Source of the DNA: Halobacteriales archaeon QS_1_69_70
Lineage (GTDB): Archaea > Halobacteriota > Halobacteria > Halobacteriales > Haloarculaceae
Reading direction: 5' to 3'
NCBI GenBank assembly: GCA_003021005.1
Contig: PXRI01000043.1
Span: forward strand, 2,958 to 48,021
Length of the DNA stretch: 45,064 nt
Both the position numbers and the translations under genes were made by a program. Positions 1 through 45,064 of this stretch are shown here, piece by piece (the stretch's first letter is position 1; the number at the start of each line of letters is the position of its first letter). Under the pieces are notes generated by a model that was not told the origin of the DNA, made no database searches, and saw only the letters and a program-made list of their open reading frames with translations.

Positions 1-480
1 GCCGGGCGGCCGACCGTAGGGAGGCCGCCGAATGGGCGAGCGGGAGGACCGACCGCAGGGAGGGACGACACGCGAGCCGCGCGGCCGACCGTAGGGAGCC
101 GTGACCGGAGGGAGCGGCTCCGGATGCGTGAACGGTGAGCGGGAGGTCGAGCGAAGCGAGACCTCCAGGGGCGAGCGGCGAATGCGAGGGCCGACCAGCG
201 GGAGGCCCTCGGGAATGCGAACGGCGACCAGTGGGAGCCGTGAGCCGGAGGGGAGCCGCGAGCGAAGCGAGCCGTGAACGAGGGAGGCCGCCGAACGAGC
301 GAGCGGGAGCCGCGAGGCCGAACGAAGTGAGGCCTCGACAGGAGCGAGCGGGAGGAGGGAGCGGAGCGACCGACGACACGCGAGCCGCGAGGCGCGACCA
401 CCGGGAGCACCTCGGAAGGGGCGAGCGGCGAGCGGAGCGAACCGCGAGCACGGGAGCGCCGCCGAACGAGCGAGCGGGAG
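1..480. repeat. Hairpin array 1 (variable-arm, constant-core hairpins)
   Basis: No convincing gene is present. The stretch is a run of short hairpins, each with an 11-nt core between complementary arms. Copies (arm; core): 5-29 GGCGGCC, GACCGTAGGGA; 95-121 GGAGCCG plus a T.G pair, GACCGGAGGGA; 142-166 GGAGGTC, GAGCGAAGCGA; 185-211 CGAGGGCC, GACCAGCGGGA; 221-241 ACGGC, GACCAGTGGGA; 313-337 CGAGGCC, GAACGAAGTGA; 388-414 CGAGGCGC with one mismatch, GACCACCGGGA. The 3' arm is the exact complement in all but the last. Degenerate copies whose arms do not pair lie at about 48-66, 81-103, 254-275 and 425-446. This array reads GA-core on the plus strand; the other four arrays are inverted. Long open frames across it are composition artefacts. 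Confidence 0.85.
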
Positions 481-668
481 GACCGGGAGTCCCGCCGAAC
501 ACGGCCGCCAGCCACCCGATGAACGCGTCAGGCCCCTGGCCGCGACCCTCGCCGGCGGCCCACGCGTCGCCGTCGAACGGATCGGCGGCCGGGCGCCGTC
601 CCACCGACGGCGTCGCGGAACACCGCCGGCGCCGACGCGCCGCCCACGTCGGCTTGGTCGGCCGACAC
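481..668 (-). pseudogene. Possible decayed ORF at end of pcm operon
   Basis: A GTG at 668 sits one base after the pcm stop and opens a frame starting MSADQADVGGASAPAVFRD. That frame degrades after about 23 codons. A second frame then looks coding (AADPFDGDAWAAGEGRGQ, then DAFIGWLAAVF, about 500-590) and runs into the hairpin array without its own stop. The codon-like GC3 pattern switching frame suggests a gene broken by a frameshift and truncated by the array. I do not recognise the product. It may equally be non-coding high-GC sequence. Confidence 0.25.
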
Positions 669-17232: not shown

Positions 17233-17237
17233 ATGGA

Positions 17238-17438
17238 TCCTCGGGCAGTCGCGCGGCTCGCGGCTTCGCCGCTCGCTCGTTCCGAGGCCTCACTTCGTTC
17301 GGCCTCGCGGCTCACGTGTCGTCGCTCCCGTTGGTCACTCCTCCCGCTCGCTCCGTCCGCGGCCTCCCTACAGTCGGCCGCGCGGCTCGCGGCTTCACCG
17401 CTCGCTCCGTCCGCGGCCTCACTACAGTCGGCCGCGCG
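17238..17438. repeat. Hairpin array 2 (directly after ileS)
   Basis: Three clear copies of the variable-arm hairpin, in inverted orientation to array 1. 17283-17307: CGAGGCC arms, core TCACTTCGTTC. 17358-17382: CGCGGCC arms, core TCCCTACAGTC. 17412-17436: CGCGGCC arms, core TCACTACAGTC. Arms are perfect 7-bp complements. Degenerate copies fill the gaps. The array happens to be open in the frame of the following metalloprotease, creating a false N-terminal extension. Confidence 0.85.
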
Positions 17439-17439
17439 G

Positions 17440-19344
17440 GTGGCGGTGGCTCTCCTCCTCGTCGCCGTCGGTGTCGCCACCCTCGCCGGCCCGGCCACCG
17501 CGGAGAGCGTCGACGTCGAGCACACCGTCGGCATGACCGAGGAGGCCGGTACCGTCGACGTGACCACGCAGGTATTCGTCCCGAGCGGCACCGCGAGCCT
17601 CCGTGTCACGATCCCGAGGGAAACCGACGTCTACGAGAAACGCGGGTTCACGAGGGTGGACCATCGGACTTACGAGTGGACTCGCTCGACCGACGAGCCC
17701 TCGCTGTCGTACACGATGGCAGGCAACGTCACCGTCGACCGCGGGAACGGCGACCGTCACCTCTTTGCAGTCACCGACGCGTGGGCCATCGTCAGCTCGC
17801 CGACGGTCGACATCCGGACGGCGAGCAGTGACGTCGCTGCCGACGAGCGGTACCGCGTGGAGGGGCAGGGCGCCGCCGGCCCCGACGTCACCTACCTCGG
17901 CGCCCACGCCAGGCACGTCCGGGCCGCCGACCAGCGGTTCACACTCGTCGTCCCGGACGCCGCCGACATGGCGACGACCCCGGCGGCCGCCCTGGATTCT
18001 CTCGAACAGGCGTCCCGCCGCATCGAGTTCGGCCGGCGGGACGACGAGGTGTTCGTCGTGGTCGCGCCGACGACGGTCGAGTGGGCGGCGACCGGCCTCC
18101 AGCGCGGCGACGCCGACATGTGGATCCGCGACGTCCAGCGGGTCGACACCGTGCGCAACGCCTGGATCCACGAGTACGTCCACACCCGCCAGGACTACGA
18201 ACCGACCGCCGAGACCCGCTGGACCGTCGAGGCGATGGCGGAGTACTACGCGGCGCTCGTCCCATTCGAGGCCGGCCGGATCGCCTACGGCGAGTTCCGG
18301 TCGAAGCTCGAGGACGGCCGCAGCGCGGCGTACGACGACGTCGTGCTCGCCGAGCCCGCGACGTGGGAGCCCGACGAGGGTGATTACGTCAAGGGCGCGC
18401 TGGTCTGGGCGGCGCTCGACCGGCGGCTGCACGCCGAGGCCGACGCCAGCATGGGCGACGTCGTCGCCACCTTCGGCGACCGGGAGGTCTCCCAAGCCGA
18501 CTTCCTCGACACCATCGAGCGGATCGGCGGCGCCGAGGTGCGGTCCGAGGCCCGCGAGTACACCGAGACGACCGCGACCCCCGAGGTCCGGAGCGAAACC
18601 GAGCACGTCCGGGCGTTCGGCGGGCCGCTGGTCCGCAACGAGTTCGACGGCTTCGCCGTCTCCGGACCCGCCCGTGAGACCGATGTGGCTGCCCCGCGGC
18701 TCGTGACCGGTGAGACCCTCGAGGCCACCGTCGTCGTGCGGAACGAGGGCACCGACACGGGCGGGTACTCGGTGCCGTTCCGGGTCGACGGTCGGACGGT
18801 CGCCACGCGAGGCGGCACCCTCGACCCCGGCGAGTCGGCGACGCTTTCGTTCACCCACACGTTCCGGACCGCCGGGGAGTACGACCTCCGGGCCGGGACG
18901 GCCACCGCGACCGCCGTCGTCCGGCGGCCGGCCGAGCCGACGGTGACCGACCTCTCGGTCGACCCTGTCTCGCCGGCCCGCGGTGAACCGGTCCGGATCA
19001 GCGCGACCGTCGGCTCCAGCGCGGACCGGCCGGCGAACGGCACCATCACCATCGCCGTCGACGGCGACGCCCTCGCGACCCGGCGGGTCGCCGTCGCCGA
19101 CGTCACGACCGTCGAGGCGACGACTTCGTTCGACGCGGCCGGCGAGCACACAGTGGGAGCCGGCGACCAGACGAAGTCGGTGACAATTCGGGAAGTGACC
19201 GTCACGCCGACCGCCAGTCCGCCCCCCTCGAACGGCACCGTTCCGGGCACCCCCTCGGGGGGCGCCGGGGCCGGCCCCGGTATCCCGCTGGCGGTCGCCG
19301 CGCTGGCCGGGGCGGCGTTGCTCCTGGGAGGGCGGTCGTCGTGA
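17440..19344 (+). CDS. Secreted HEXXH metalloprotease with CARDB-like domains
   Basis: 634 aa from GTG 17440. Residues 2-22 are a signal peptide (AVALLLVAVGVATLAGPATA). A gluzincin-like site HEYVH at 244-248 is followed by E264 in EAMAEYYA, fitting HEXXH plus a distal Glu. The preceding N-terminal beta region resembles the M1/M61-type fold. Two CARDB-like modules follow (TLEATVVVRNEGTDTGGYSV, then TVTDLSVDPVSPARGEPVRI). A C-terminal Pro/Thr/Gly linker and hydrophobic helix (IPLAVAALAGAALLLGG) anchor it outside the cell. The frame is open back to 17233, but those residues are Ala/Ser/Arg-rich and come from the hairpin array; a signal peptide starting at 17440 makes better sense. The substrate is unknown. 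Confidence 0.75.
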   Translation: MAVALLLVAVGVATLAGPATAESVDVEHTVGMTEEAGTVDVTTQVFVPSGTASLRVTIPRETDVYEKRGFTRVDHRTYEWTRSTDEPSLSYTMAGNVTVDRGNGDRHLFAVTDAWAIVSSPTVDIRTASSDVAADERYRVEGQGAAGPDVTYLGAHARHVRAADQRFTLVVPDAADMATTPAAALDSLEQASRRIEFGRRDDEVFVVVAPTTVEWAATGLQRGDADMWIRDVQRVDTVRNAWIHEYVHTRQDYEPTAETRWTVEAMAEYYAALVPFEAGRIAYGEFRSKLEDGRSAAYDDVVLAEPATWEPDEGDYVKGALVWAALDRRLHAEADASMGDVVATFGDREVSQADFLDTIERIGGAEVRSEAREYTETTATPEVRSETEHVRAFGGPLVRNEFDGFAVSGPARETDVAAPRLVTGETLEATVVVRNEGTDTGGYSVPFRVDGRTVATRGGTLDPGESATLSFTHTFRTAGEYDLRAGTATATAVVRRPAEPTVTDLSVDPVSPARGEPVRISATVGSSADRPANGTITIAVDGDALATRRVAVADVTTVEATTSFDAAGEHTVGAGDQTKSVTIREVTVTPTASPPPSNGTVPGTPSGGAGAGPGIPLAVAALAGAALLLGGRSS

Positions 19345-21365: not shown

Positions 21366-21527
21366 GACGGCAGTTGGTCCGGTCCCGGAAGTACGTGACG
21401 GATACGTCCCGAACTTCCTGCACGGGGTCCATGCGGCGGCTCCTCGCGTGCCGCGGCCCCCCAAGCACGGTCAGACAGACTGGAGGTCTCCCGACGATCG
21501 AGGCTCGGTCCCCCGCTCGCCCGATTC

Positions 21528-21600
21528 GCGTGTCGTCCCTCCCTCCGGTCAGTCCTCCCGCTCGCCCATCCGGCGGCCTCCCTCCGGTCGGCCGCCGGGT
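21528..21600. repeat. Hairpin array 3
   Basis: A short array in the 400-bp gap upstream of idsA. One perfect copy at 21572-21596 (GGCGGCC arms, core TCCCTCCGGTC), preceded by the same spacer found in arrays 4 and 5 (CGTGTCGTCCCTCCC, then TCCTCCCGCTCG). Apart from the array, 21366-21762 shows no gene. Confidence 0.8.
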
Positions 21601-21762
21601 CCACGATAGGCGGCACTCCCGATATAGCGTTCGCATTCCCGAGACGCTCCATGCGGTCGCCTCACGCCAGTCGCCCGCGCGGCGTGTCGAAAGACGGCCG
21701 CCGACATGCTTTCGTCAGTGAGCAACGCGATGGTTTGGGTGTTACACAGGGGCTCGGGACGT

Positions 21763-22729
21763 AAGATAACTTTTGAATATTAGAGGAGCCTGCGCTCCGG
21801 TCTGCAGCTTACCTCACTTACTCGGGTAACCGATCGAAAGACGTCACGGACTACCCTGGATCAAGGATACTGCGATAGCCGAGACCTGCCTCCTGAGGCT
21901 CTGCCACACCGGGAGAAAGCCCGAATCGATGTCGCTCGGTCGCGCGTGTACGCACACGTGTGCGAGCAAAACAGATCTTCGAGAACGAGCGATACGTTTT
22001 ATCCCGGTTATCGGTGCCCACTCGTTCGAATGCCTGGCAGGTCCGGTCTCGCTGAAACGGACGATCGCTCGACGACGAACCAGCGTGTGTTAGGCGCCCG
22101 ACGTCGGGACCGTCGAAGGCCCGGACTCGTCGATGGTCGTGGCACGGCCGCAGTCCACGACATACCCACCGTCCGTGGGCGGTTCCTCGTCCTACTCGAG
22201 GGCCCTGTCGCGCCGGTCTTCGGGTGTCTCGCCGTCGTTGCCCGGCCGCTCGGGCCGCTCTGGCCGGGATTCTGCGGAGTGGACGTCGAGTGACCGGAGT
22301 AGTTCGTATATATAGTTCGGATGGTACGTGACGTCGAACCGCTCTTCGATGAAATGATGGACTGCCCGGGTCGTCAACGGTTTTTCAGTCGCGAGCAGCT
22401 GCCGCAGCTGCTGGCGCTCCGACGCAGTCAGTTTCGAGGGCCGCCCGCCGCCGTGGTCCGGCGCGAGTTCGTCGACGCAGCCGTCGTTCCACTGCGCCGC
22501 CCACCGCGCGCCGGTCGGTTGGGACTTCCCCTCGCGAGTCGCGGCTTCCCCGAGCGTGTCTCCACGGTATAGATTCTTGATGAACCCGAGCCGTCGAACC
22601 ATCTCCGGGTCCTCGGCGTCCCGGAGTTTCGCGTCCAGTTCGTCTTCGCTCAGGTGTCGTTCGATCTCCTTCCGCCGACCGGTTCCCATGTGCACTCTAT
22701 CGGCTCTAAATATTCAAATCTTTTCTTAA
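21763..22729. mobile_element. Decayed IS630-type insertion element
   Basis: About 967 bp, flanked by imperfect inverted ends. The left end (21763-21784) reads AAGATAACTTTTGAATATTA; the right end, read inward from 22729 on the minus strand, contains AAGAAAAGATTTGAATATTT. Both continue AGAG. Inside is a minus-strand IS630-like transposase with in-frame stops. The segment is visibly AT-richer than its surroundings. Exact ends and any TA duplication are not certain. Confidence 0.6.
21857..22695 (-). pseudogene. IS630-family transposase, interrupted
   Basis: The first 167 codons (22695 to 22192) are intact: an N-terminal HTH region of IS630 OrfA type (ERHLSEDELDAKLRDAEDPE, MVRRLGFIKNLYRGDTLGEA, DHGGGRPSKLTASERQQL). 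A TAG at 22194-22192 stops it. The same frame continues DEEPPTDGGYVVD and TIDESGPSTVPTS to a second stop near 22093. Much further on, still in frame, FLPVWQSLRRQVSAIAVSLI (21857-21921) matches the NPxEPVWKSLK region at the end of IS630 DDE domains. The rest of the DDE domain is unrecognisable or deleted. The protein cannot be active; the HTH fragment could still be expressed. Start ATG 22695 or 22689. Confidence 0.7.
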
Positions 22730-27349: not shown

Positions 27350-27805
27350 ATGCCGGATCGAGCGGCCGCGCCAGTCATCGGCGTGGTGCTCCTGGTCGCG
27401 CTGGCGGCGGTGACGGCCGCCGGCGTCGGTGCCCTGGCCGCCGTCGACCCGCCGGCGGAGACACCATCGGCGGCGTTCACCGCCACGGCGGCGCCAGACG
27501 GCACGATAGCGGTGACCCACCGCGGCGGCGACGCCATCAAGCCGGCGCAGCTCCACGTCCGGATCAGCGTCGACGGCCGGCGGCTGGCCGCCCAGCCGCC
27601 GGTCCCGTTCTTCGCCGCCGAGGGGTTCGTCAGCGGCCCGACCGGCCCGTTCAACCGGGGGCACGCCGGCCGGTGGACCGCCGGCGAGACGGCGTCGCTG
27701 CGGGTCGCCTCGACCAACCGGCCGCCCGTCCGGGCGGACGCGACGGTGACGGTCGAGCTGTACGTCTCCGGCCGTCGCCTCGCGACGCTGCGGGCGACCG
27801 CCTAG
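27350..27805 (+). CDS. Archaeal type IV pilin-like protein
   Basis: 151 aa. The N-terminus DRAAAPVIGVVLLVALAAV is the class III signal and hydrophobic helix of archaeal pilins (cut before the helix by a prepilin peptidase). The rest is a small beta domain with the haloarchaeal pilin-type pattern (TIAVTHRGGDAIKPAQLHVR). It may be a minor pilin or a pilin-like surface protein. It follows the secreted protein at 26098-27312 and is followed directly by hairpin array 4. Confidence 0.8.
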   Translation: MPDRAAAPVIGVVLLVALAAVTAAGVGALAAVDPPAETPSAAFTATAAPDGTIAVTHRGGDAIKPAQLHVRISVDGRRLAAQPPVPFFAAEGFVSGPTGPFNRGHAGRWTAGETASLRVASTNRPPVRADATVTVELYVSGRRLATLRATA

Positions 27806-27810
27806 GCGGG

Positions 27811-28040
27811 CTCGACGGGCTCGCGGCTCACTCCGTTCACCGCTCGCACATCCGGCGGCCTCCCTCCGGTCGGCCGCCCGGCTCGCGTGTCGTCCCTCCC
27901 TTCGGTCGGTCCTCCCGCTCGCTCGTTCGGCGGCCTCCCTCCGGTCGGCCGCCCGGCTCGCGTGTCGTCGGTCGCTCCGCTCCCTCCTCCCGCTCGCTCA
28001 TTTCGAGGCGCTCGCTTCGCTCGCGCCTCGCGGCTCGCGG
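27811..28040. repeat. Hairpin array 4
   Basis: Copies: 27823-27843 (GCGG arms, core TCACTCCGTTC), 27854-27878 and 27929-27953 (GGCGGCC arms, core TCCCTCCGGTC), 28004-28030 (perfect 8-bp CGAGGCGC arms, core TCGCTTCGCTC). The identical spacer GCTCGCGTGTCGTC occurs after two copies. It lies between the convergent pilin and methyltransferase genes and covers the last codons of the latter. Confidence 0.85.
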
Positions 28041-28684
28041 TCGTCGCCCGGCGTCGCCGGGCCGTCCTCGGGGACGGCCGCGACGGTGGTGATCGCCCGC
28101 GGCGTGCCGGGGGCGCGCTGCTGGATGTGGTGCTCGACGGTCCCGAAGCCGGCCGCGGCGAACATCCGGTCGGCCTCGGCCTCGTCGTAGAACAGCATGA
28201 TGGCGTCGGCGAGCCGCTGGAACACCGTCGAGTTCGGGTAGTCGGGCCCGACCACGAGGACGGGGCCGCCGGGCCTGGTCACGCGGCGGGCCTCCTCTAG
28301 GGCCGCGACCGGGTTCGGCCAGTACTCGATGGAGCCCGACGACCAGTAGGCGTCGAAGCTGTCGTCGGCGAACGGGAGCCGCTCGGCGTCGCCCCGGACG
28401 AACCGGACCGGCCCGCGCCTGCCGAACTTCCCGTAGGCCCGCTCGAGCTGGTGGGCTGACTGGTCGAGCCCCCAGACGTCGTCGGTGTGCTCGAGCAAGC
28501 CGCGGGTGGCGAAGCCGGTGCCGCAGCCGACGTCGAGCACCCGGTCGCCGGCCTCGACGCCGAACCACTCGATGGCCCGGTCCCGCATCGCCTCGTTCCA
28601 GACGAACGGGTTGATGGCGTCGTACACCGTCGAGAGGTACCGGTAGAACACGCGTGCGCGGGCCTTGTCTTCGAGGAGTCCCAT
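27998..28684 (-). CDS. SAM-dependent methyltransferase, MPBQ/UbiE-like
   Basis: 228 aa. Class I methyltransferase: VLDVGCGTGFATRGLLEH (motif I) near residues 43-60, WGLDQSAHQLERAYGKF, GDAERLPFADDSFDAYWSSG and VTRPGGPVLVVGPDYPNS. It resembles the 2-methyl-6-phytyl-benzoquinol / menaquinone-type methyltransferases; the exact substrate is uncertain. ATG 28684 (MGLLEDKARARVFYRYLSTV) follows a TTATG TATA-like box by about 28 nt. The final residues (GASEASASK) are encoded by hairpin array 4, so the original 3' end has probably been replaced. Confidence 0.85.
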   Translation of the reverse strand: MGLLEDKARARVFYRYLSTVYDAINPFVWNEAMRDRAIEWFGVEAGDRVLDVGCGTGFATRGLLEHTDDVWGLDQSAHQLERAYGKFGRRGPVRFVRGDAERLPFADDSFDAYWSSGSIEYWPNPVAALEEARRVTRPGGPVLVVGPDYPNSTVFQRLADAIMLFYDEAEADRMFAAAGFGTVEHHIQQRAPGTPRAITTVAAVPEDGPATPGDDREPRGASEASASK

Positions 28685-44974: not shown

Positions 44975-45064
44975 CGGGTCGGCCGCGCGGCTCGCGTGTC
45001 GTCCCTCCCTGCGGTCGGTCCTCCCGCTCGCTCGGTCCGCGGCCTCCCTCCGGTCGGCCGCGCG
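44975..45064. repeat. Hairpin array 5 (cut by the window end)
   Basis: One perfect hairpin at 45038-45062 (CGCGGCC arms, core TCCCTCCGGTC), preceded by the spacer GCTCGCGTGTCGTCCCTCCC shared with array 4 and a degenerate core TCCCTGCGGTC (45007-45017). The array runs past the window end. Confidence 0.8.

Follow-up and report, generated by a model that had tools for sequence, protein, structure and literature searches.

How a haloarchaeal genome came to hold many copies of one small hairpin, and what those copies are, is the question raised by the stretch of DNA analyzed here (the window), 45,064 nt of contig PXRI01000043.1 of Halobacteriales archaeon QS_1_69_70. The genome assembly that holds the window measures 2.45 Mb in 44 contigs and is 82% complete, and among the best 80 of 225 confirmed loci the isoleucyl-tRNA synthetase (IleRS) of the window is closest to those of a Haloarculaceae archaeon (80%), a Halobacteriales archaeon (78%), and Natronomonas sp. 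(75%). Sixteen hairpins of the window share one design, in which a variable arm, GA, a base x, a C(GNA)G cap, x', GA, and the complementary arm follow one another. They belong to a hairpin element that is widespread in haloarchaea, gathers between genes, and sometimes lies in frame within enzyme genes. We consider it probable that this is a non-autonomous palindromic mobile element and that the repeats of the window are its copies together with decayed tandem arrays. A preliminary description of the window had listed spread as a non-autonomous element among its inferences, and this has become its best-supported part, because some genes have orthologues that differ by 54 nt, filled in one genome and empty in another, and because one array of the window (Array B) is missing from relatives.

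The basic unit of the element is 54 nt long and folds into two hairpins: H1, which reads arm-[GA/GA]-x-C(GNA)G-x'-[GA/GA]-arm, and H2, which is built alike and reads GC-[GA/GA]-GCGGC(GAA)GCCGC-[GA/GA]-GC. The 30 loci that best match the unit, chosen by similarity to its gene-borne form, yielded 34 hairpins in 26 loci, 27 of them in called genes and 7 intergenic, with two of the intergenic ones in Array B. All 27 genic hairpins have GA on the sense strand and keep a single phase, GAG CGN AGC GAG (Glu-Arg-Ser-Glu) or variants of it, and the in-gene unit reads as an acidic, stop-free peptide of 18 residues, about REGERSEPSERASGEAAS. These are not 27 independent events, because genes recur (a P-type ATPase in five genomes, IleRS in three, LeuRS in three, and a DUF2249 protein in two). 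The other reading frames of the unit appear to be basic or otherwise unsuited to acidic haloarchaeal proteins, and the phase bias is therefore what selection against bad insertions would be expected to leave. Ten host genes fall into ten Pfam kinds: E1-E2 ATPase, leucyl-tRNA synthetase, DUF2249, archaeal helicase, IleRS-type class I synthetase, aconitase C-terminal domain, amidohydrolase, asparaginase, YcaO, and argininosuccinate lyase-type lyase. Within loci chosen by covariance model, 19 of 76 matches lie in called genes, a few of which are chance coding matches.

The copies in genes provide the strongest result, through comparison of filled and empty orthologues. The empty form of the P-type ATPase reads CTCGTTCGTGACGGAGAG (locus L208), and the filled form of L154 is longer by exactly 54 nt. 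Six loci are filled (L153, with three tandem units; L160, with two; and L154, L162, L164, and L225), and 24 of the 30 fetched loci are shown without the unit. Within the Haloarcula group, the IleRS genes of L057 and L156 have 54 nt between GACCGCGAGGGC and AGT where those of L061, L070, L041, and L051 have nothing. The IleRS loop hairpin occurs in 3 of the 80 IleRS loci (L057, L078, and L085), a set collected by its IleRS genes irrespective of the hairpin, with a coreless remnant in L032, and again in L158, L166, and L147, which were found in other searches. The same loop holds other insertions in L026, L064, L074, L021, and L069 and is a generally tolerant site. The DUF2249 protein is 17 residues longer over this stretch than the usual orthologue in L175 and L178, a difference that was aligned as an 18-codon unit, and none of the 25 readable orthologues among 30 fetched has the unit. 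In LeuRS, three genomes have two units apiece; the second unit is partly degenerate, and the loop that holds them is of variable length.

Array B supplies a second, intergenic case. It puts 207 nt between the stop codon of IleRS and the next gene, and comparison with other loci indicates that it is an insertion between that stop and the body of the next gene, absent from six relatives. Eight loci were compared at this site; six (L013, L014, L021, L023, L078, and L085) have no spacer, the IleRS stop overlapping or touching the next ATG (TGATG/TAATG). The more distant L016 and L017 do have a spacer, with an H2-type hairpin seen by eye at the IleRS end in L017 (Halostella) and none in L016. The frame from the ATG at 17233 stays open through the array (open reading frame 17233-19344), and translation of the next gene could start at the GTG at 17440 instead.

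If the element is mobile, the 54-nt differences between orthologues would be gains and not losses, movement would pass through a single-stranded hairpin, and the mobilizing enzyme would be supplied in trans. Once in place, the unit probably multiplies in tandem, as 54 nt or, in this genome, as longer 75-nt derivatives, and then decays; mobility and this growth in tandem are both drawn from the comparisons just described. In-gene copies are seen where they read in frame as the acidic peptide. Tandem spacing by whole units (54 nt between the cores at 17365 and 17419 and in L123 and L153, 75 nt between those at 27861 and 27936) is also what one would see if nothing had moved at all, and the copies arose by local duplication, template switching, or gene conversion, with quasi-palindrome repair at replication making the arms complementary. 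Template switching perfects imperfect palindromes without selection, which counts for this alternative, as does the resemblance of arms near the target to the target itself. The same unit, however, stands in unrelated genes of many genera, Array B is present where six relatives have no spacer, and the GA/GA mismatches stay unrepaired beside perfect arms; we judge an origin without mobility to be unlikely.

A chance product of GC-rich sequence was rejected by comparisons of loop types, control cores, 2x2 mismatches, and a reversed model. The first two drew on 445 kb of the genome that holds the window, namely, the window and 20 stretches of 20 kb each (15 from base 1 of contigs C17, C8, and C10; four from base 1 of C21; and C12:70001-90000). 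These contigs were picked after copies had already been seen there, so that copy density in the sample is a biased estimate, while the comparison of loop types is unaffected. The 11-nt GA..GA loop caps 73 stems of at least 7 Watson-Crick pairs, against 8 for the next loop type; TC..TC, its complement, gives an equal count, these being the 73 stems read on the other strand. Scanning for the core plus arms found 93 copies, 88 of them intergenic by simple gene calls made in this analysis, and four control cores found 0, 3, 1, and 2. Among 2x2-mismatch stems whose inner stem has 2 pairs or more and whose loop is 3 nt long, GA/GA leads with 103 against 6 for the next mismatch in the own genome and with 45 against 17 in the 80 IleRS loci; of the 103 own-genome cases, 79 are capped by GNA and 14 by A-N-C, the second class. 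The fourth comparison set a covariance model (R1) of 69 copies, themselves chosen for pairing, against a control model (R2) of 34 of the same sequences reversed, which matched none of 145 genomes; in the 80 IleRS loci R1 gave 22 matches at E<=0.1 and R2 gave 3. Taken alone, R2 is a weak control, for it has no positive genome and fewer rows than R1, and one of its 34 rows was mistyped.

Folding of the consensus unit predicts both H1 and H2, as DNA and as RNA. The pair between core positions 3 and 9, for which copies were not selected, is Watson-Crick in 107 of 114 armed sites of the own genome, in 119 of 136 from other chosen loci, and in 35 of 50 from the IleRS loci; a separate set of pair counts comes from copies selected for pairing and does not count as independent evidence. 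In armed copies, core positions 5 and 7 are mostly G..A or A..C, and the first pair of H2 is GC in 121 copies, AT in 39, AC in 7, and GT in 7, a tally over nearly all loci in which related or overlapping copies were left unthinned. The oligonucleotide d(GCGAAGC) is an exceptionally stable DNA mini-hairpin, and tandem sheared G.A pairs are known in model structures. Our copies are like them in the C(GNA)G cap and the PyGAPu tandem GA, and differ in that these are known as a model structure and not as a repeat family.

Covariation was tested with Fitch counts on a FastTree tree and 100 null alignments, a simplification of R-scape, and the main set consisted of intergenic core sites picked without regard to their arms. 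Own-genome sites gave three pairs at E<=0.05, all of them predicted (core 3-9 and two arm pairs), and class-wide sites gave six, of which four were predicted and two joined adjacent columns; covariation of core 5-7 was not significant at the intergenic sites. Well-armed intergenic copies carried 26 distinct arms among 72 in the own genome and 40 among 72 class-wide. The test bears out the preliminary description where it spoke of a structured repeat with compensatory arms and where it held that core positions 3 and 9 covary. Its further claim, that compensatory changes imply selection on folding, is not established, as the same pattern could come from template-switch repair or from a stem that includes a copy of the target.

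The possible copy of the target in the stem deserves consideration in its own right. In IleRS, the ATPase, and DUF2249 alike, the unit adjoins the 3' side of CNCGAG or a sequence close to it (CGYGAS), and a like sequence recurs at its far end. The target-like CGAG makes up the outer end of the 5' arm, opposite a CTCG of the unit with which it pairs; in the DUF2249 gene this CGAG predates the insertion, because the residues on the left (His-Glu) are those of the host. Less certainly, CGCG (variant class CGCGCG) takes the target place, with CGCG in the 3' arm, in the helicase copy (L171/L303) and in Array B. Elements of the IS200/IS605 type have subterminal hairpins at their ends, and the short target beside the insertion pairs with a sequence inside the element. 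The pairing of CTCG with CGAG, seen here in three genes where the ends of the unit are ambiguous, may correspond to that of guide with target there; unlike them, our element holds no transposase gene. It is conceivable, though we would not expect it, that the element is target-guided, its 5' arm being partly host target and its 3' arm the guide. The covarying arms would then record pairing of element and target during single-strand insertion, the guide classes (CTCG against CGAG, CGCG against CGCG, and further ones) would be separate specificities, and the mover would be something other than the known Y1 transposases.

The covariance-model search of haloarchaeal genomes that the preliminary description had proposed found R1 matches in 142 of 292 genomes at E<=0.001, with 24 candidates scored per genome, so that such counts are lower bounds; R2 matched 0 of 145 genomes. 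A 64-nt form of the unit, with three candidates scored per genome, matched 216 of the 292 genomes and 63 of 77 genera. Across a sample of the phylum it was found within the same order in 29 of 43 genomes and outside that order in 2 of 203, both marginal (E 5e-4 and 9e-4). In the genome of the window, 130 of the 150 candidates scored match R1. Such a high copy number, together with the 88 intergenic positions among the 93 own copies, might be taken as a sign of a chromosome-organizing or protein-binding site whose hairpin or cruciform is recognized by a host protein. The number of matches, however, ranges from none to many among relatives (lower bounds, as above), the positions of copies are not conserved, and two genomes of the same genus (G008 and G017) have no R1 match at that setting, with a unit match in G008; we regard a site of this kind as highly improbable.

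Several observations weigh against a mobile element and against the hairpin structure on which it is built. No movement was caught between strains. The Y1 transposase family (PF01797) has no match in three unit-rich genomes (G000, which holds the window, G011, and G014), although gaps in incomplete genomes could hide one, and 0 hairpins were found in 20 Y1 loci (65 kb). More widely, PF01797 is present in 24 of 40 relatives and absent from 6 of 25 near-complete genomes, 4 of which (G005, G021, G038, and G039) have R1 matches. The ends of the unit are ambiguous within the repeated target copy, which may be a target-site duplication or pre-existing homology. The IleRS of L078 has the insert and a frame broken after it, and the empty form of the L171 helicase gene could not be fixed, its loop being variable. 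No unit match was found in plasmids, phages, or viral contigs at the thresholds used, a weak negative given a very short query and a single exact pattern as one of the searches; a vector of that kind is set back accordingly. The fold energy of the unit as DNA is no better than that of shuffles (z -0.85). When the inner stem must have at least 3 pairs and the loop may span 3 to 11 nt, GA/GA no longer ranks first, and the enrichment is therefore specific to the short capped form. Finally, when the gene-context filter was lifted from the covariation test, the own genome gave one significant predicted pair (3-9), and the class-wide set gave four adjacent-column pairs at E 0.05 and no predicted pair, with 3-9 at 0.067; the unfiltered signal is weaker because coding sites dilute it.

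The hairpins might instead be transcribed RNA elements, acting in 3' untranslated regions as terminators, stabilizers, or processing signals. T4 lies downstream in 10 of 43 IleRS-locus hairpins, against 3 on the other strand, the 43 including chance coding matches (the reversed control gives 7). Hairpins follow a stop codon at once or nearly so in six loci (L116, L122, L137, L141, L145, and L152, of the f4 genomes), seven loci picked by eye have a copy that lies beyond a tRNA gene, downstream and on its strand, and the unit as RNA folds better than its composition predicts (z -2.49). The sections consulted of a Haloferax volcanii study describe hairpins, which may be of this or another motif, upstream of 503 RNA 3' ends, one of them tested in a coding region (PMC7237163). 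On the other side, T4 follows only 2 of the 93 own copies and none of the 76 in covariance-model loci (1 and 5 on the other strand); own-genome arrays in codirectional gaps are sense in 8 cases and antisense in 6, with 8 more in divergent gaps; G.T barely exceeds A.C in the arms (38 against 29 over three sets); and many copies lie within coding sequence. Arm mismatches in the two richer sets are mainly G.A and A.G, and copies within one space agree, with a single orientation in 20 of the 21 spaces that hold at least two. A purely RNA terminator was rejected on the mixed orientation, the rarity of T-tracts, and the counts of G.T and A.C, and for much the same reasons (mixed orientation, rare T-tracts, little excess of G.T) the earlier idea of an RNA transcript finds no support in this genome. 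We therefore think it quite unlikely that an RNA function explains the family. T4 follows a minority of the copies even in the IleRS loci; some single copies followed by T-tracts probably do serve as terminators, while RNA folding is not what unites the family, and an RNA role would be at most secondary.

Three side observations concern the surroundings of copies. In the f4 loci a second hairpin follows the one at the stop codon, e.g., GGCGGCGAGGTCTTCGTGCCGAGCCGCC (by eye). The copies downstream of tRNA genes (L117, L119, L125, L127, L132, L148, and L150) lie a few to a few hundred nucleotides away, some of them beside a repeated tRNA 3' half. A conserved GCGGTGGCGCGCGCTGTC ahead of the hairpin in L113, L114, L120, L129, and L133 (f7 genomes) suggests a larger composite element.

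Returning to the mobile element, we find an apparent analogue in the Rickettsia palindromic elements (RPE), for which we know of no transposase of their own. As with RPE, the haloarchaeal element is a palindromic multicopy unit inserted in frame in unrelated genes that have empty orthologues; it is set apart by its tandem units and by the constant GA/GA-GNA design of its hairpin. Palindromic coding elements of Methanocaldococcus jannaschii were reportedly described by Suyama et al. in 2005. As far as the accessible portions of two papers go (PMC10969869, PMC2996958), palindromic selfish coding elements are known in Rickettsia, Wolbachia, and M. jannaschii, and RPE are likewise short palindromes that lie in frame in unrelated genes and elsewhere and encode a conserved peptide. 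They differ in being about 150 bp long (PMC10969869), against 54 nt here, and in belonging to another domain of hosts, and the likeness drawn here is one of description. The M. jannaschii element, also compared by description only, is alike in being an archaeal palindromic repeat with coding potential and differs in its methanogen host.

Other known systems fit less well. Repetitive extragenic palindromes (REPs) are, like our copies, short extragenic palindromes in high copy; according to the parts available of one source, they are moved by REP-associated tyrosine transposases (RAYTs), CGTC-tagged REPs lack a dedicated transposase, and tagged REPs are described in bacterial phyla, archaea appearing there only in the reference list, in two mentions (PMC3733652). 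Neither a GTAG nor a CGTC tag was seen beside the hairpins when copy flanks were read by eye, and the 54-nt units of the filled orthologues contain no GTAG, which occurs inside some cores (GACCGTAGGGA) and not as a tag. A GTAG/CGTC REP with its RAYT was rejected, there being no flanking tag and Y1 genes not tracking the element. A CRISPR array was rejected on irregular repeat spacing and on linkers that are themselves repeated, cas genes not having been searched; CRISPR repeats are the subject of PMC3404096, as its available text presents it. Rfam has 0 matches in the window at gathering score, which rejects a family listed there and answers the preliminary description, for which a match to a named repeat would have told against novelty. 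No description of the haloarchaeal element was met in the literature searched, subscription journals lying mostly outside that search.

If the element is indeed mobile, one small element writes an acidic 18-residue peptide into haloarchaeal enzymes across most of the genera sampled, and its copies are a natural record of selfish DNA adding protein loops, now in archaea. It would also account for long GC-rich arrays that break assemblies and provide a natural collection of tandem-GA and GNA hairpins rich in compensatory variants, and its mover would be a concrete search target.

Within the window, a hairpin was taken to be a core with a contiguous arm of at least 5 pairs (G.T counted) or with at most one mismatch in 7. 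The bare core motif is a weak marker, with 43 matches against 17.7 expected, and ten more core matches lie within arrays without arms. The preliminary description had recognized the family and counted 15 members, one fewer than this definition gives; it rightly placed a mismatch at 388-414 and a perfect arm at 28004-28030, and it presented as a feature of positions 1 to 480 what is spread over five arrays (Table 1). Its term "intergenic arrays" mostly holds, except that one array lies within the opening of a reading frame and the copy at 28004-28030 runs into the 3' end of a called gene (27998-28684). The last three hairpins of Array D are spaced 75 and 76 nt apart.

Table 1. Arrays of the window and the hairpins of Array B (array limits approximate; H2 read by eye, the first with the fold predicted for the consensus unit)
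Feature	Position	Strand	Core at	Description
Array A	1..500	+	12, 103, 149, 193, 226, 320, 396	hairpins 5-29, 95-121, 142-166, 185-211, 221-241, 313-337, 388-414 (one mismatch)
Array B	17236..17440	-		about 205 nt; three variable-arm hairpins and two H2
H2	17256..17276	-		GC-[GA]-GCGGC-GAA-GCCGC-[GA]-GC
H1	17283..17307	-	17290	arms CGAGGCC/GGCCTCG, core GAACGAAGTGA
H1	17358..17382	-	17365	arms CGCGGCC/GGCCGCG, core GACTGTAGGGA
H2	17385..17405	-		GC-[GA]-GCGG-TGAAG-CCGC-[GA]-GC
H1	17412..17436	-	17419	arms CGCGGCC/GGCCGCG, core GACTGTAGTGA, positions 3/9 unpaired; 54 nt from preceding copy
Array C	21500..21660	-	21579	full hairpin 21570-21598 (9-pair arms) and one armless core
Array D	27800..28040	-	27828, 27861, 27936, 28012	hairpins 27823-27843, 27854-27878, 27929-27953, 28004-28030
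Array E	44990..45064	-	45045	hairpin 45038-45062 and one armless core; cut by window end

Array A extends upstream of the window over an assembly gap (a further copy and a run of N), and Array E runs on over another beyond its end. Positions 1 and 45064 thus both adjoin runs of N within repeat arrays (L293, about 2877-2957, and L294), and the element therefore probably breaks the assembly. Near Array C, at 22192-22695, lies an HTH_32/HTH_33 fragment that is possibly derived from a transposase.
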